A program made the position numbers and the translations under genes. A model generated the notes under the pieces. The model was not told the DNA's origin. It saw only the letters and a program-made list of their open reading frames with translations, and ran no database searches. Positions 3,440 to 33,250 of a stretch of DNA of 64,000 nucleotides are shown here, one piece after another (position 1 is the stretch's first letter; each line of letters opens with the position of its first letter). Source of the DNA: Phycisphaerae bacterium (GTDB taxonomy: Bacteria > Planctomycetota > Phycisphaerae > SM23-33); assembly GCA_018335035.1 (NCBI GenBank), contig JAGXKT010000001.1, forward strand, positions 1 through 64,000. Direction: 5' to 3'.

Positions 3440-4588
3440 GTGCACCGCATGCGCGATGAGTTGACGGACATTCTTCACGTGGTGCGGCGGCGGTTTCTGC
3501 GGGCCCGTGCGGCCGAAGCGGCCGCGGTCGGCGCGGCGGTCGCGGCGCTGGCGTCGGTCGGAATCGAGCTGGCATGGCTGGTTGGCGATGCATCCGTCAT
3601 TGCGGGCGGCGCGCTGTGCGGGCTGGCGGCGACGGCGTGCGCCTGGACGGGCTGGTCGGCAAGGCTTCGCCGGCGCATCGGCGCCGAGCGCGTCGTGATG
3701 AACGTTGCCGGGGCGGTTGCCGCCGTTGGTGCGCTGATCGCCTTGGGCGTGCTCGTGTTCGGCCGGGCCGACGCCGTCGATGCGTGGGTCTGGCCGATGA
3801 CGCTCGTACCGGCGACGGCGCTGATCGAGGTGGCGGCGATGGTGGCGCGCGGCGCGGACGTGCGCCGGGCGGCGACGTGGGTTGATCGCCGTGCCGGATT
3901 GTCCGAGCGGCTGAGCACGGCGGCTGAACTGGTGGGGCAACCGGACGAGCCGGCGGCGCAGTGCGTTCGCCGTCAGGCGCTTCAGGCCGCACGCAGTGAC
4001 GCGGCGCAACGCGTGTCCTTCTGGCGACGAACCCGCGCCACAGCCGGTGCGCTGGGATTGGCGATGCTTCTGGCCGCGGCGGTCGCGCTGCTGCCGGCGG
4101 CGGTGCGAGAGGACGGCGATTCCGCGCCACCCGTGGCGAAGCAGCCGCCGCGTACGCCGGAACCGGCGCGTGTGGTTGCGCCCGAGGCGAAGCTCAGCCG
4201 CGAGCGATTCGCGGGCATGTCAGTGGCCGAGCGGCGAGCGCTGGCGCGCGGCCTGCGGCGCCGCGCAGAGGCCGCTCGCGATCCGAAACGCGCTGCGGCA
4301 TTGCGCCAAGCGGCCAAGGCGGCCGAGCGTGGCGACTACGCCGAACTGGTCCGTCAACTCGAACGCGGCGGCGCGGAGGCCGTGCGTCTGTCCTCCGGGA
4401 CACAAGATGCAGCCGGCGACAACGCCGGTTCACCGACGGTCAAGCCCCCGATGACCGTCGACGACGCGCCGGGCGCCAACTGGCAGGCCGCCCGCCGGCG
4501 GGCCGAACGCGCGCTGCGTGGTACGGGAAACGTACCAGAGGAGTATCGCGCCGTCGTCCGCGCCTTTTACCTTGCGTGGCACCGCTAA
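3440..4588 (+). CDS. membrane protein with DUF4175-like features
   Basis: A 382-aa protein I do not recognise by name. Predicted hydrophobic segments lie at about residues 30-70 (two), 90-130 (two) and 200-220. Between the second and third groups is a cytoplasmic stretch (WVDRRAGLSERLSTAAELV) that resembles the juxtamembrane region of DUF4175-like planctomycete membrane proteins. The rest is an Arg/Ala-rich soluble domain ending VPEEYRAVVRAFYLAWHR. The start is GTG with GGGGAGG close upstream; the ATG nine bases later is also possible. Probably expressed on its own after lpxK. Function unknown. Confidence 0.65.
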   Translation: MHRMRDELTDILHVVRRRFLRARAAEAAAVGAAVAALASVGIELAWLVGDASVIAGGALCGLAATACAWTGWSARLRRRIGAERVVMNVAGAVAAVGALIALGVLVFGRADAVDAWVWPMTLVPATALIEVAAMVARGADVRRAATWVDRRAGLSERLSTAAELVGQPDEPAAQCVRRQALQAARSDAAQRVSFWRRTRATAGALGLAMLLAAAVALLPAAVREDGDSAPPVAKQPPRTPEPARVVAPEAKLSRERFAGMSVAERRALARGLRRRAEAARDPKRAAALRQAAKAAERGDYAELVRQLERGGAEAVRLSSGTQDAAGDNAGSPTVKPPMTVDDAPGANWQAARRRAERALRGTGNVPEEYRAVVRAFYLAWHR

Positions 4589-26265: not shown

Positions 26266-27717
26266 ATGAATCAGGACCTGCTACGTTTGGTGGACGGTCT
26301 GGCGCGGGACAAGAACATCGACCGCGAGACCGTACTGGAGGACCTCGAGGCGGCGGTGTACTCCGCCATTCGCAAATCGCACGTCGATACTGAGGACATT
26401 ACGGTTCGCATCGATCGTCAGTCGGGCGAGATGACGGCTACGGTCGACGGTAAGACGATGAGCATTAGGGACTTGGGGCGGATTGCGGCCCAGACGGCCA
26501 AGCAGGTCATCATTCAGCGGATTCGCGAGGCCGAGCGCGACAGCATCTACGAGGAGTTCGTGGAACGTCGCGGCGAGATCGTCACGGGCGTCGTCGCCCG
26601 GCGTGAGAGCGGCGCGCTGATCGCGGAGTTGGGGCGGACGGACGCGATCCTCCCGCGAAGCGAGCAGATTCCCGGCGATTCCCACGAGAAAGGCGACCGC
26701 GTCCGCGCGATGGTGCTGGACGCGCGCGAGCAGCCCGGGCAGGTTCGCGTCGTCCTGAGTCGTTCGCACCCGGACTTCATCCGGGCGCTGTTCGAATTGG
26801 AGGTGCCCGAGGTCGCTGAGGGTGTTATCGAGCTCAAGGCGCTGGCACGCGAGGCGGGCTACCGCACGAAGGTCGCGGTCGACAGTCTGGATACGAAGGT
26901 CGACGCCGTCGGCGCATGCGTGGGCATCCGGGGCAGCCGCATCCGCAACATCGTTGACGAGCTCGGCGGCGAGAAAATCGACATCGTCCGCTGGAACGAT
27001 TCATCGAAGGTTCTGATCGCCAATGCGTTGAAACCGGCCGAGGTCGCCGAGATCGCCCTGTGCTTCGAGTTGGGGCGGGCGACGGTGGTGGTCAATGACG
27101 ATCAGTTGTCCTTGGCGATCGGCAAGCGCGGTCAGAACGTGCGCCTCGCGGCGCGCCTGACCGGTTGGGATATCGACATCCTCACGCCGGCGGAGTTCAA
27201 CCAGGCGCTGGACGTGCTGGAGAAGGCCCTGCGCGACGTCGAGGGAGTGGATTCGACAGTGGTCGACCAGGTCGTGGCGATGGGAATGGTCAGTGTTCTG
27301 GACGTCGAGGAAGTCGGTCCGGTGCCGCTGGTCAACGAACTTCAACTGGACGAACAGACCGCCCAGCGGATTGTGCTGCGCTGCGCGGAAGAGGCCAAAC
27401 GCGTCGCCGAGGAGCAGGCCAAGGCGCAGGAAGAGAAGCGCCGTTTGGCCGAACAAGAGAGCGACGAAGCGTCGGCGACGCCCGTGACGAGCGGGCAGGG
27501 CGCCACGGCGGACGAGGCATCCACCGAAACGTCGGAAACCCCGCCTGGCGAGGCGGATGCTCCGGAGCCGCCGAGCGATTCGGCACCGGCGCCCCAGACG
27601 TCCGAAGTGCCGGAGCAGCCCGAGTCGTCGCAACCGGCCGGGCCTGCAGCGTCGCAGACATCCGAGGCATCGCAGGGCGAGCCGCCGTCCGACGGCGACA
27701 AGCAGACAGCAGTGTAA
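26266..27717 (+). CDS. nusA: transcription termination/antitermination protein NusA
   Basis: A 483-aa NusA. The N-terminal RNAP-binding domain (MNQDLLRLVDGLARDKNIDRETVLEDLEAAVYSAIRK) is followed by an S1 domain (RGEIVTGVVARRESGALIAEL) and KH1/KH2 (VGACVGIRGSRIRNIVDELGGEKIDIVRW; LAIGKRGQNVRLAARLTGWDIDI). A long Pro/Ser/Glu tail after residue ~380 is probably disordered. ATG 26266 has GAGAAGG upstream and fits the family start. No rimP gene lies upstream, unlike the usual rimP-nusA-infB order. It is probably co-transcribed with infB, ylxP and rbfA. Confidence 0.95.
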   Translation: MNQDLLRLVDGLARDKNIDRETVLEDLEAAVYSAIRKSHVDTEDITVRIDRQSGEMTATVDGKTMSIRDLGRIAAQTAKQVIIQRIREAERDSIYEEFVERRGEIVTGVVARRESGALIAELGRTDAILPRSEQIPGDSHEKGDRVRAMVLDAREQPGQVRVVLSRSHPDFIRALFELEVPEVAEGVIELKALAREAGYRTKVAVDSLDTKVDAVGACVGIRGSRIRNIVDELGGEKIDIVRWNDSSKVLIANALKPAEVAEIALCFELGRATVVVNDDQLSLAIGKRGQNVRLAARLTGWDIDILTPAEFNQALDVLEKALRDVEGVDSTVVDQVVAMGMVSVLDVEEVGPVPLVNELQLDEQTAQRIVLRCAEEAKRVAEEQAKAQEEKRRLAEQESDEASATPVTSGQGATADEASTETSETPPGEADAPEPPSDSAPAPQTSEVPEQPESSQPAGPAASQTSEASQGEPPSDGDKQTAV

Positions 27718-27774: not shown

Positions 27775-30453
27775 TTGGCGAAACGCGTATTTGAGTTGGC
27801 CCGTGAAATCGGCGTGACGAGCAAGACCGTGCTCGAGAAGTGCCGCGCCGAGGGGCTGGACATCAAGAACCACATGTCGACCGTCTCGGCCGGTCTGGAA
27901 GCGACGCTGCGCGAATGGTTCAGCGAGGCGGTTGAAGGCACCGCCGTTGAGACGAGCGAGCATGTGGATCTGGAGCGGGCGCGGAAGGAGGCGGCGCGCC
28001 AGCGTCGCCGTCGCAAGAAGCGCGCTGCCGAAGAGGCCGCTGAGAATCCGCCTGAGCCCGCCGAGGCCGAGCTGCAGCAGACGCCGGAAGCCGAGCCGGC
28101 TGCCGAACCCTCCGAGCCGCCCGCCGGTGAGCCGGAGTCGCCAGTCGAAGCCGCCGTCGCCGAAGCGCCCGAAGCGCCCGAAGCGCCGCCCGATGAAGAC
28201 GAAGTGACCAGCGAGGCCGAATCGGCCGAGGTCGAATCCGACGAGCGCCCGGTCGAAGCCCCGCCGGCCGAGGAAGGCGAGCAGCCGGAAGAAGAACCGG
28301 AAGCCAATGAGTCGGTCATGCCCGCCGGGCCGAAAGTCGTGCCCAAGCCCGCGACATTGCAGGGCCCGCGCGTGGTTCGGATGGAGCGCCCGGAATCGAC
28401 GCCTGCGCCGCGGCGCCGCACGCCTCCGCCGCGCGGCCCGCGCGTCGTGCCGTCTGGGGAGCCGGATCGCACGCGGCGCGGCCGCGAGGACGACCAGCGG
28501 CGCAAACGTAAGCGTCGCAGCCCGCGCCGGCGCAGCGGCGGACGCAGCGCCGACAGCGGGGAGAAGCTCAAGGAATGGCGCAATCAGGATCTGATGGAGC
28601 GCCAGGAGCGCCTGGCGGCCGCCAGCGGAGGCCTACGGCGCCACCGAACTCGTGTCGGCAACAAGGGCGGAAGCGGCGGACCTGCCGTCCAGGCCGGAAC
28701 AGTCGAAATCGAAGAGCCGATTACGGTCAAAAGTTTGTCAGCCGCGACGGGGCTCAAGGCCGGGCTTATCATCAAGAAACTGATGGCCGAAGGGATCATG
28801 GCGACGGTCAACCAAGGCGTGGATCGTGCTCTGGCCGAGAGCGTCGCCGCCGAATACGACATCGAGTTGGTCGTCAAGGAGGCCAAGACGGCCGAGCAGG
28901 AGTTGATGGAGCGCATCGACCGGCGCGAGAAGGGCGCCACCGAGGCGCGGCCGCCGGTCGTGACGTTCCTGGGCCACGTGGACCACGGCAAGACCTCGCT
29001 GCTGGATTACATCCGCAAGACGGGTGTCGCCGGGGGCGAGGCCGGGGGTATCACCCAGCACATCGGCGCTTCGCGCTACGAGTTGGAAGGCGGGCGCCGT
29101 GTGGTGTTTCTGGACACGCCGGGCCATGAGGCCTTCACGGCGATGCGGGCCCGCGGCGCAAACATGACCGACGTGGTGGTGCTGGTCGTGGCCGCCGATG
29201 ACGGGGTCATGCCGCAGACGATCGAGGCGATCAGTCATGCGAAGGCGGCCCAGGTGCCGATCGTTGTGGCGTTGAACAAGATCGACGTTCCCAACGCCAA
29301 CCCCCAGCGGGCGCTGGCGCAGCTTGCCGAGCAAGGGCTCCAACCGCGCGAGTGGGGCGGCGATACCGAGGTGATCCAGACGAGCGCCGAGACCGGGGCG
29401 GGCATCGACACGCTCGTCGAGACGCTCTCGCTGGAAGCGGAGTTGTTGGAGCTTGCTGCCGAGACTGGCGCTCCGGCCGGCGGGTTTGTCATCGAGGCGG
29501 AGGTCGATCCCGGCCGTGGCGTACTGGCCCGGCTGCTGGTGCGCAACGGCACCCTGCGCACGGGCGACGTATTGCTGGCCGGAGGCGGCTACGGGCGCGT
29601 GCGGCAAATGATCGACGACCGCGGCAAGCAGGTCGAGGAGGCGGGCCCCTCGACGGCGGTGGAGGTTGCCGGGCTGGACGAGGTCCCCGATGCGGGCGAT
29701 CGATTCTATGCGGTTGCATCCCAAGACGAGGCCCGCGCCGTCGCAGAGGACCGCCGCCAGCGCAGCAGGGCCGAATCCCTGGCAGCCAACCGGGTCAGCG
29801 TCGAGTCGCTTCTGGCGCAGATGGGCGGCGAGGAGACGCAGGAACTGAAGCTCGTCGTCAAGGCGGACGTTCAGGGCTCGGTCGAGGCGCTTGTCGCTTC
29901 GCTGGAGAAGCTGGCGACCGACGAGGCGCCCTTGAGCGTGCTCCATGCGGGCGTCGGCGGCGTGACCACGGGCGATGTGACGCTGGCCGAAGCGTCCGGC
30001 GCGCTGATTATCGCGTTCAGCGTTGTCGCCGGCGCCCCGGCGCGGCAGTTGGCCGATGAGAAGGATGTGGACATCCGCCAGTACCGGGTGATCTACGATG
30101 TAATCGAGGATGTGCGGCGGGCCCTGGCTGAGGGGTTGGCGCCGGAGATTCGCACCGAGACCCTGGGCCGGGCCGAGGTCCGAGAGGTGTTCAAGGTCTC
30201 GCGCGTGGGCACGGTGGCCGGCTGCTTCGTCCACGACGGCGTGGCGGCGCGCAACGCGAAGGTGCGCGTGACGCGGAACGACGTTATCGTCGTCGACGAG
30301 CGGGACGTGGCGTCTCTCAAGCGTTTCAAGGACGATGCCCGCGAAGTCCGCGCGGGCATGGAATGCGGCGTCCGGATCGCGGGCTTCGACGACGTCAAAG
30401 AAGGCGACATGCTGGAGTTCTACCGGCAGGTCGAAGTCGCCCGGACGCTGTAA
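27775..30453 (+). CDS. infB: translation initiation factor IF-2
   Basis: An 892-aa IF-2, the GTPase that places initiator tRNA on the 30S subunit. The start is TTG, supported by GGGAGG upstream and by the conserved IF2_N beginning [23 protein letters not shown] Pro/Glu/Ala-rich and then Arg-rich linker (about 60-300) precedes the second IF2_N-like module and the G domain: [41 protein letters not shown]. Domains II-IV follow, ending in [18 protein letters not shown]. The long linker is typical of high-GC bacteria. Confidence 0.96.
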
Positions 30454-30542: not shown

Positions 30543-30830
30543 ATGGCGACCATAGCAGGGCTGGTTCACCTGCGACTGCACGTGCACCAGGCCAACAGTC
30601 TGAAGGACAAGCGGCGAATCGTCAAAAGCTTCAAGACGCGCCTGTCCAACGCCTTCAACGTCAGCGTCGCCGAAGTGGACGGACTGGACAGCCACCGCAC
30701 CGTGGTTCTGGCCGTGGCCATGGTGGGAAACGACAAACGCTACGTGGAGGGTTCCCTCCAGCGAATCGTCAATGTAGCGGCCGACGAGCGCGATATGGTC
30801 CTGGCGGACCACGAGATCGCGTGGCTGTGA
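30543..30830 (+). CDS. ylxP: DUF503 protein (YlxP-like)
   Basis: A 95-aa member of the DUF503 family, which is often found beside rbfA in the nusA-infB operon. The typical start is MATIAGLVHLRLHVHQANSLKDKRRIVKS, with a beta-alpha-beta fold and VSVAEVDGLDSHRTVVLAVAMVG. The family is thought to assist translation or ribosome maturation, but the molecular role is not settled. ATG 30543 gives the family length; the upstream extension in the track is rejected. It is eight bases ahead of rbfA. Confidence 0.88.
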   Translation: MATIAGLVHLRLHVHQANSLKDKRRIVKSFKTRLSNAFNVSVAEVDGLDSHRTVVLAVAMVGNDKRYVEGSLQRIVNVAADERDMVLADHEIAWL

Positions 30831-30838
30831 TTGCAGCG

Positions 30839-31246
30839 ATGAGCCGACGCACGGAACGCCTCAACAGTTTGATCCGTCAGGTGATCGGGGAGTTGATGCT
30901 CTCGAAGCTGTCGGATCCGCGGATCGACCCGGCACGAACTGCCGTGACACGCGTCGAGGTGCCGGAAGACCTGCTGACCGCCAAGGTGTACGTGTCCGTC
31001 ATGGGCAGCGAGAGCGAGCAGCGAACGACGATCCGCGCTTTGCGGCACGCGGCCGGGCATATTCAGGAACTAATGCGGCGACAGGTTCGGCTGCGGCATA
31101 CGCCGGTGCTCCGGTTCGAGCCGGACGAGCAATACAAGAAGACACTCGAGACGCTGGCGAAGATCGACGAGGCAATGAAAGACGTTCGACGCAGGCAGCC
31201 GCACGACGCCGACGACGAACCGCCGCAAGGTGGACGGGACGGGTGA
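30839..31246 (+). CDS. rbfA: ribosome-binding factor A
   Basis: A 135-aa RbfA, needed for late maturation of the 16S rRNA 5' end, particularly in the cold. The KH-like fold shows LNSLIRQVIGELMLSKLSDPRI, TRVEVPEDLLTAKVYVSVMG and VRLRHTPVLRFEPDEQYK. ATG 30839 is the family start. The C-terminal 20 residues are charged. Its TGA stop shares one base with the ATG of the next gene (TGATG), so translation is coupled to the H1-tailed protein. Confidence 0.93.
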   Translation: MSRRTERLNSLIRQVIGELMLSKLSDPRIDPARTAVTRVEVPEDLLTAKVYVSVMGSESEQRTTIRALRHAAGHIQELMRRQVRLRHTPVLRFEPDEQYKKTLETLAKIDEAMKDVRRRQPHDADDEPPQGGRDG

Positions 31247-32295
31247 TGAAGAACGCTACGGCATATCGCAAGAAGCTCAAATCGCTTTTGAAGCCCTTGC
31301 CGAAGGACGCGGGCCTTCCGGCTGCGGATGAACGCGAAGAGCCCATCCGGGTGTTCGTTCGAGCGGTCCTGGAGGCCGATGCGGCGGACAAACACGCGAA
31401 TAAGGCCGTGGTCGCGCTCGAAGAGGAGTTCGTGGACTACAACGATATGCGCGTCGCGCTGCCCCGAGAGCTGATCGAGTGTATCGGGAAGGACTACCCC
31501 GACGCGCGGGCCAGGGCCGAGCACATTCATGCCGTGTTGACCAACATCTTCCAACGGTTCAATCTCGTCTCATTGGATGCGGTGGCCGATCTGCCCAAAA
31601 CGGAACTGCGACGCCGCCTTCGGGAACTTGGCATGACGCCATATGAAGAGGGCGTCGTCTCCGCGTTGTCGTTCGGCATGGCGACGATACCGACCGACGA
31701 AACGCTCGCCGAATGCCTTGCGATGGACGGCTACGTCGAAGCGGGCAGTGACAGCGACGAGGTGCAGAAGTTCCTGGAGAGGAGCGTAGCCGCCAAGAAC
31801 ATGCCGGGCGCCCATCAAGTGCTCCGTGGCTACGTGCGCAAGCGTGCCAAGCCCCTCGCTCAGAAGCGCAAAAGAGAAGCCGAAGCCGCCCGCGCCGAGG
31901 CCGAGCGCCAAGCTGCTGAGGCCGAAGAAGCTCGCAAGGAGGCGGAAGCGAAAGAGGCCAAGAAGGCCAAGAAGACGAAGAAGGCGAAGAAGACAAAGAG
32001 GGCCAAGAAGGCGAAGAAAGCTACGAAGGCGAAGAAGGCCGCGAAGCGGACGAAAAAGACCGCCAAGCGCAGAACCAGAACCGGTGCGAAGACGTCCAAG
32101 AAGACGGCGCGAAAGACATCGAAAAGAGCATCCGTCGCCACGCACAAGCGCACGAAGGGCGGGAGAAGGTCGTCGAAAAAGGCGAAGAAGAAGGCGACGA
32201 AGAGGGCATCGAAGAAGTCCTCCTCGAAGTCGTCGCGACGTGCGAAGTCTCGCGGGGGCAAGAAGACAGGCGGCAAGGGCGGCCGAAAGAGCTAG
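31246..32295 (+). CDS. endonuclease III-like (HhH-GPD fold) domain with histone H1-like lysine tail
   Basis: A 349-aa protein in two parts. Residues 1 to about 200 look like the helical endonuclease III fold (VVALEEEFVDYNDMRVALP, RAEHIHAVLTNIFQRFNLVSLDAVADL, EEGVVSALSFGMATIPTDETLAECL). However, I see no helix-hairpin-helix LPGVG motif, no catalytic Lys/Asp and no 4Fe-4S cysteine set, so it is probably not an active glycosylase. After an Ala/Glu/Lys coiled-coil stretch (200-240) comes a ~110-residue tail almost entirely of K, R, A, S and T (KKAKKTKKAKK repeats), as in bacterial H1-like proteins. It overlaps rbfA by one base. Likely a DNA- or RNA-binding chromatin-type protein. Confidence 0.7.
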   Translation: MKNATAYRKKLKSLLKPLPKDAGLPAADEREEPIRVFVRAVLEADAADKHANKAVVALEEEFVDYNDMRVALPRELIECIGKDYPDARARAEHIHAVLTNIFQRFNLVSLDAVADLPKTELRRRLRELGMTPYEEGVVSALSFGMATIPTDETLAECLAMDGYVEAGSDSDEVQKFLERSVAAKNMPGAHQVLRGYVRKRAKPLAQKRKREAEAARAEAERQAAEAEEARKEAEAKEAKKAKKTKKAKKTKRAKKAKKATKAKKAAKRTKKTAKRRTRTGAKTSKKTARKTSKRASVATHKRTKGGRRSSKKAKKKATKRASKKSSSKSSRRAKSRGGKKTGGKGGRKS

Positions 32296-32353: not shown

Positions 32354-33250
32354 ATGGTTCACAAATCGCGAGAAGACAAACTGGTTCTCGGCATTCCCAA
32401 GGGCTCGTTGCAGGAAGCCACGGTCGACCTTTTTGATCGTGCGGGCTATCGCATTACGGTGTCGTCTCGCAGCTATTACCCGACGATCGATGACGACGAG
32501 ATCGACGCGATCATCCTGCGCCCGCAGGAGATGAGCCGCTTCGTCGAGGCCGGCACGATCGATGTGGGCCTGACCGGTCACGACTGGATCTGCGAGAACG
32601 ACTCGGACGTGGCCGAGGTCGCCGAGTTGGTATACGCCAAGCAGCGGCTGGCGCCCGTGCGGTGGGTGCTGGCCGTTCCGGAAGACAGCCCCGTCCGCGA
32701 CCCGTCGGACCTGGCCGGCGGAATGGTCTCGACGGAACTGGTCAACGTGACCCGCCAGTATTTCGCCGACAAGGGCGTCGACGTGGAAGTGGAGTTCAGC
32801 CACGGCGCGACGGAGGTCAAGGCGAACCTGGGCGAACTCTATGACGCGATCGTGGACGTGACGGAGACGGGCAGTTCGCTGCGCGCCAACCGCCTGCGCG
32901 TCGTAGATACCGTCCTGGCGTCCTCGACCCGCCTGGTCGCCAACCGCGACGCGATGCAGAATGATTGGAAACGCGGCAAGATCGAGAACATCGCCCTGTT
33001 GCTGACGGCCGCCATTCAGGCGAGGGAAAAGGTCGGGCTCAAGCTCAACGTCCCCCGCGCGAAGCTTGACGAGGTGGCCGACGTACTGCCGGCCGAGAAG
33101 AGCCCGACCGTCTCCGACCTCGCCGACCGCGACTGGGTGGCTGTGGAGGTCATTCTCGATGAGGCCGTCGAACGCGAGTTGATCCCGCAGCTCAAACGCG
33201 CCGGGGCGACGGGCATCATTACCTATCCGCTCAACAAGGTCATTCCCTGA
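32354..33250 (+). CDS. hisG: ATP phosphoribosyltransferase
   Basis: A 298-aa HisG of the long form, the first enzyme of histidine synthesis. The catalytic part has LVLGIPKGSLQEATVDLF, YYPTIDDDEIDAIILRPQEM, AGTIDVGLTGHDWI and DAIVDVTETGSSLRANRLRVV (the PRPP-binding region). The last ~75 residues form the ACT-like regulatory domain that binds histidine, ending TGIITYPLNKVIP. AAGGAAG precedes the ATG. No other his genes are adjacent. Confidence 0.94.
   Translation: MVHKSREDKLVLGIPKGSLQEATVDLFDRAGYRITVSSRSYYPTIDDDEIDAIILRPQEMSRFVEAGTIDVGLTGHDWICENDSDVAEVAELVYAKQRLAPVRWVLAVPEDSPVRDPSDLAGGMVSTELVNVTRQYFADKGVDVEVEFSHGATEVKANLGELYDAIVDVTETGSSLRANRLRVVDTVLASSTRLVANRDAMQNDWKRGKIENIALLLTAAIQAREKVGLKLNVPRAKLDEVADVLPAEKSPTVSDLADRDWVAVEVILDEAVERELIPQLKRAGATGIITYPLNKVIP

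Follow-up and report, generated by a model that had tools for sequence, protein, structure and literature searches.

The rbfA-linked gene and its neighborhood

The window analyzed here, a stretch of 64,000 nucleotides from a Phycisphaerae bacterium (contig JAGXKT010000001.1), contains a translation-related gene cluster in which Pfam matches identify the order nusA, infB, ylxP (DUF503) and rbfA, followed by the gene that is the subject of this report and then by hisG (Table 1). This gene starts with the ATG at 31246, ends with the stop codon at 32293-32295 and encodes a product of 349 aa. The last base of the rbfA stop codon is the A of its ATG, and this overlap, along with the Pfam assignments, bears out the placement made in the initial annotation, where the gene was described as the last of the nusA-infB-ylxP-rbfA cluster and as coupled to rbfA. 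Absence from close relatives, which the same annotation had named as grounds for abandoning its proposal, is contradicted by the presence of a homolog in 53 of 60 related genomes, including 38 of the 39 that are of good quality. This conservation, combined with the predicted structure of the encoded protein (AlphaFold2 pLDDT of 94.9), rules out a spurious open reading frame at this position. The truB gene of the source genome is found elsewhere, on contig C44; the TruB_N domain was detected in 42 of the 60 relatives (26 of the 39 good genomes) and in 14 of 14 control genomes.

Table 1. Genes of the nusA-hisG region and features of the rbfA-linked protein, in positions of the window
Feature	Position	Strand	Evidence or remark
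nusA	26266..27717	+	Pfam KH_5 6e-26, NusA_N 2.2e-17
infB (IF2)	27775..30453	+	Pfam IF-2 2.3e-36
ylxP (DUF503)	30543..30830	+	Pfam 3.6e-27
rbfA	30839..31246	+	Pfam RBFA 8.2e-25; stop overlaps next ATG by one base
EndoIII-fold protein linked to rbfA, with a basic tail; 349 aa	31246..32295	+	Object of this report
EndoIII/HhH-GPD-fold core, residues 1-200	31246..31845	+	AlphaFold2 model, DrEndoIII-3 match, profile A4
Signature motif at residues 64-70: DYNDMRV in this protein (family consensus D-x-N-E-[LV]-R-V)	31435..31455	+	Alignment
Degenerate helix-hairpin-helix, residues 129-133 (GMTPY)	31630..31644	+	Tyr133 at catalytic Lys position
Asp151 codon, catalytic Asp position, kept here	31696..31698	+	Alignment
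Tail rich in K/R/A/T/S (residues 201-349; net charge +56)	31846..32292	+	Composition
hisG, next gene downstream	32354..33250	+	Pfam HisG 8.4e-43

Structure and evolutionary affinities of the core

The N-terminal core of the protein is predicted to adopt the two-domain, all-helical fold of endonuclease III (EndoIII) in an AlphaFold2 model built on an alignment of 59 sequences (pTM 0.89). Its best match in the PDB is Deinococcus radiodurans endonuclease III-3 (DrEndoIII-3; 4uob), with a Z-score of 19.1 and an rmsd of 3.3 over 203 aligned residues, and endonuclease III structures also occupy the top ranks in a Foldseek search (E 6.3e-8). Together these matches rule out a fold unrelated to HhH-GPD, an outcome for which the initial annotation had proposed structure prediction as the check, and its reading of an endonuclease III-like helical domain stands. 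A distant member of the family, which is linked to rpsP and has the Fe-S cysteines, was modeled with the same fold (pLDDT 88.7) and matches 4uob with a Z-score of 16.2 and an rmsd of 7.2 over 228 aligned residues.

The relationship is also recovered at the sequence level. The family profile A4 matches D. radiodurans EndoIII-1 (8a5f) with an E-value of 5e-18, demonstrating sequence homology to EndoIII, and profile A1 matches EndoIII-like paralogs of the same phylum with a probability of 99.6. Curated models fall short of detecting it: the core scores 22.5 bits against the Pfam HhH-GPD model PF00730 (gathering score 26.2), which matches 2 of 59 family members at E <= 1e-3, and the score against the NCBIfam nth model is 18.3 bits (cut-off 211.7). 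The NCBIfam model for the DR2438 "monofunctional DNA glycosylase" (NF053634) gives weak matches to 39 of the 59 members (best 6.2e-17), with its curated cut-off of 400 bits far above the 54.9 bits of the top member scanned singly (L179), and it has no match to the protein from the window at E <= 1e-3. Searched by sequence against the PDB, the core by itself gave one weak match, to drebrin. The rbfA-linked EndoIII-fold family is unnamed in both Pfam and NCBIfam; our literature searches found no paper on it, and it is not named in the available portions of a study of essential genes in Planctopirus limnophila (PMC10632474) or of a report on the PVC signature (PMC3444138).

In a tree of 114 sequences a single branch (SH-aLRT 99) separates 79 family members from 35 ordinary HhH-GPD proteins, although this was a quick reconstruction with long branches that left 44 of its 106 inner branches open. 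The source genome holds four ordinary HhH-GPD genes besides the gene at 31246-32295, which is thus an extra paralog. Three of these four lie within about 63 kb of one contig (G000:C82:45511-108950). At one locus (L086, G175:C5) an HhH-GPD domain appears, by reading of the sequence, to run in-frame into a cytosine-C5 methyltransferase-like sequence.

The closest solved fold, DrEndoIII-3 (4uob, 8a5g), shares 13% identity with the core. According to the available text of the study that describes it (PMC10523315), this protein has an Fe-S cluster and both the catalytic Asp and Lys, and yet its EndoIII activity was not detectable; it may thus serve as a precedent for an inactive EndoIII. Unlike DrEndoIII-3, the protein from the window has neither the Fe-S cysteines nor the catalytic Lys. 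The same fold is seen in Schizosaccharomyces pombe Mag2 (4b21 and 4hsb; Foldseek E-values of 7.3e-4 and 1.8e-4, respectively). Mag2 is an AlkA-type, eukaryotic DNA glycosylase homolog that is not known to have glycosylase activity, and we know of no basic tail or translation context for it.

Active site and signature motif

We examined the conservation of the active site and of family-specific residues in a set of 143 non-redundant loci, which pools the results of several searches rather than sampling at random; one further locus (L085) was left out of it as its motif, RDWNELRI, escaped the regular expression. The family is unified by a D-x-N-E-[LV]-R-V signature, which is missing from six canonical paralogs in the same alignment. 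Positions equivalent to N66 and R69 are occupied by these residues in all 143 members and D64 in 141, but N66 is not strictly invariant beyond this set, since an additional locus (L228) carries GWMEVRV.

Nth and EndoIII-1 (DR2438, NF053634) have in common with the family the fold and a detectable sequence homology; unlike them, the family lacks the lyase Lys throughout (143 of 143) and scores far under the curated cut-offs. At this position Phe (58) and Tyr (54) predominate, accounting for 112 of the 143, with Tyr133 replacing it in the protein from the window. The second Gly of the helix-hairpin-helix is likewise eroded, being kept in four members and lost in 139, including this protein. The position of the catalytic Asp, which follows a P-V dipeptide, shows a different pattern: it is Asp in 102 of the 143 members, Asn, Ser or Thr in 30 and one of these four residues in 132. 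As all four are helix N-cap residues, the conservation of this position may be in part structural. Accordingly, the description in the initial annotation of a domain without catalytic residues holds for the Lys, and fails for the Asp, which this protein keeps as Asp151. Its description of missing Fe-S residues is correct for this protein, where the C-x6-C-x2-C-x5-C motif is absent, and does not extend to the family as a trait, given that four cysteines of this kind are present in 34 of 144 members, with the exact spacing in 31. Their survival suggests that the ancestor of the family probably had an Fe-S cluster.

These remnants raise the question of whether the family members are still base-excision enzymes, acting on DNA or RNA as monofunctional glycosylases that use the Asp alone in the manner of MutY, perhaps tied to the transcription or translation of damaged templates. 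The retained Asp, including that of the protein from the window, the aromatic residue in place of the Lys, the surviving Fe-S cysteines, the weak affinity to the DR2438 model and the presence of nusA in the same cluster would all be compatible with such an activity. We nevertheless consider it unlikely: the DR2438 scores of members scanned singly reach no more than a fraction of the cut-off, the Asp is replaced by Asn, Ser or Thr in 30 members, the second HhH Gly is nearly always lost, the genome already possesses its four ordinary HhH-GPD genes, and no repair gene is a recurrent neighbor in the loci read.

The basic tail

The core is followed by a tail of 149 residues, among which are 46 Lys, 31 Ala, 20 Arg, 14 Thr and 13 Ser, against 10 acidic residues (Asp or Glu). 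This is a Lys/Ala-rich, basic, low-complexity domain of H1-like composition, and the histone H1-like tail noted in the initial annotation is thus present. Stretches with at least 50% Lys and Arg over 30 residues near the C-terminus occur in 2 of 49 greedily chosen open reading frames of the window. The other K/R-rich frame, at 3597-4130 on the minus strand (177 aa, 50% Lys and Arg in 30 residues), has no Pfam match and may be spurious.

Every one of the 28 near relatives whose 3' end is complete has a K/R-rich tail. In the family as a whole, after members with masked letters or incomplete 3' ends were dropped (143 reduced to 139), it is present in 93 of 139 and missing, by the criterion used, in the remaining 46. 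As the H1-like tail is common but not universal, the conserved unit of the family is the core, and we reject the notion that the tail represents its functional essence.

Bacterial H1-like proteins, such as Hc1/Hc2 and AlgP, resemble the tail in their Lys/Ala-rich, low-complexity, basic composition; unlike them, the tail of this family extends from a folded core, and the family can dispense with it. The resemblance, and the DNA binding known for the EndoIII fold from solved homologs, would be in keeping with a nucleoid protein that compacts DNA through its tail and binds it weakly through the glycosylase fold. However, the core is near neutral, with a median net charge of -1 in the family versus +7 in 35 ordinary HhH-GPD proteins, the core and its genomic context persist in those members that lack the tail, and no chromosome-structure gene was seen as a recurrent neighbor. 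Furthermore, Lys-rich tails are just as typical of RNA-binding proteins. Taken together these points make a nucleoid protein quite improbable.

Conserved gene neighborhoods

Contextual information from gene neighborhoods provides a pointer to the functional sphere of the family. In the neighborhood survey, rbfA occurs within 700 nt upstream of the family gene in 121 of the 143 loci, confirming the coupling to rbfA that was originally noted at a single locus. Another six have rpsP/ffh upstream and five have yebC downstream; two are without upstream sequence, and the remaining nine have other neighbors, none of them from the panel of translation genes searched. Eighteen further loci, of which 12 lie downstream of rpsP and six upstream of yebC, contribute 17 new instances, L217 being identical in the tree to L187. 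Overall, 149 of 158 assessable loci adjoin rbfA (121), rpsP/ffh (17) or yebC (11), the rpsP, ffh and yebC neighbors having been checked with Pfam. In contrast, none of these marker genes is near any of 20 ordinary HhH-GPD loci drawn as controls from about 150 listed HhH-GPD places. The family is therefore recurrently linked to genes of 30S biogenesis and translation. To our knowledge this is a new observation: the family gene is tied to ribosome genes and not to repair genes.

In the rbfA-linked loci the median gap between the rbfA stop and the start of the family gene is 13 nt, and the two genes overlap in 41 of 121. In 62 of these 121 loci the gene is followed by hisG, and since hisG is a metabolic gene, gene order by itself cannot be taken as proof of function. 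The order nusA-infB-rbfA-X-hisG, where X is the family gene, is conserved in Phycisphaerae, and the retention of even hisG in it is what would be expected if a repair gene, or an uncharacterized one, had merely hitch-hiked beside rbfA through frozen gene order. We regard this as very improbable, because the copies that have relocated mostly adjoin other translation genes (rpsP/ffh or yebC), with at least four switches of context being needed on the tree.

Four rbfA-linked loci (L157, L160, L171 and L181) encode members of 422-554 aa, which are far longer than the others.

Phyletic distribution and the near-absence of RimM and RimP

The family is found across much of Planctomycetota. A scan of 84,980 species genomes with one degenerate motif, by which members elsewhere that lack the motif would be missed, matched 134 stretches, of which 106 were confirmed as relatives and 80 were kept. 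The record titles of these 80, on which the taxonomic restriction of the family rests, are nearly all of Planctomycetota, with two of Actinomycetes and a few unlabeled. The two titled Actinomycetes (L118 and L120) have the Phycisphaerae-type rbfA-X-hisG locus and are probably mislabeled metagenome-assembled genomes. The figure of 275 of 292 genomes obtained for the phylum also covers matches of the ordinary HhH-GPD type and should not be read as the number of genomes with the family gene. Applied to 40 genomes of the phylum whose signals were weak or related to RimP, the broader profile A5 found the family gene in 18 and no convincing copy of it in the other 22.

The position of the family gene after rpsP or rbfA is comparable to that of another 30S-related gene, in that rimM follows rpsP in Escherichia coli. 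The folds of RimM and RimP are unrelated to that of EndoIII. We found RimM in none of 292 genomes of the phylum with PF01782; an independent model, TIGR02273, detected it in one of the 292 and in none of the 209 good genomes. RimP was found in 17 of the 292. Among the 60 relatives of the source genome neither was detected, with RbfA, as a positive control, present in 54, and both RimM and RimP were recovered in 10 of 10 bacterial controls. According to the available text of a 2025 survey (PMC12641178), RimM and RimP are conserved in >90% of bacteria outside CPR; Planctomycetes are not mentioned in its main text, as judged by a term search.

The co-occurrence of these proteins with the family gene does not fit a simple replacement. 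A strict replacement of RimP is rejected by the 15 of 17 RimP-bearing genomes that carry the family gene. An obligate replacement of RimM is weakened by the 22 genomes without a convincing family gene in the A5 check, in which RimM is missing too. Likewise, in three families (f57, f78 and f86) the genomes checked have neither the family gene nor RimM. It follows from these three families and the RimP-bearing genomes that the family gene is not a strict stand-in for RimM or RimP.

Functional implications

The initial annotation had left the choice between a nucleoid- and a ribosome-associated nucleic-acid binder, and the three recurring translation contexts (rbfA, rpsP/ffh and yebC) tilt it toward the ribosome. 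We accordingly favor, as reasonably probable, the view that a glycosylase fold has here been put to new use in a factor for translation or 30S assembly, with the tail binding RNA. Such a protein would be a planctomycetal pseudo-glycosylase, that is, an endonuclease III paralog in which the helical two-domain fold persists while the lyase Lys and, in the lineage of the window, the Fe-S cluster are gone, and which was recruited to translation; we infer that it would be devoid of glycosylase activity. It would most likely sit beside RbfA on 16S rRNA that is still immature, or on the 30S subunit, and participate in assembly, with the core docking via what was once its nucleic-acid cleft and via a newly arisen, conserved surface around the D-x-N-E-x-R motif. 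The unstructured Lys/Arg tail might neutralize RNA phosphates, as the tails of ribosomal proteins do, and co-expression with RbfA, S16 or YebC could set a matching dose of the protein. Several observations count against this repurposing: a pure pseudoenzyme need keep neither the Asp, retained in 102 of 143 members, nor the Fe-S cysteines, retained in 34 of 144; nine loci have no translation neighbor in the panel searched; the metabolic gene hisG shares the conserved order; the basic tail is missing from 46 of 139 members; and the family gene is no strict stand-in for RimM or RimP.

A more specific proposal, which we put forward tentatively as possible, is that the family is a phylum-specific 30S maturation factor exapted from a DNA glycosylase, in a phylum that would have lost RimM and nearly all of its RimP and would assemble the small subunit with a distinct set of factors. 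As such it might act together with RbfA, or else at the step involving S16, and the histone-like tail, which most lineages would have gained, might bind RNA. How Planctomycetota mature the 30S subunit with almost no RimM or RimP is a question for which this conserved and uncatalogued gene offers a direct candidate. If the repurposing is true, a base-excision-repair fold would have turned into a translation factor, with the intermediates still to be seen in living lineages, in which the Fe-S cluster is kept or lost, the Asp kept or lost, and the tail present or absent.
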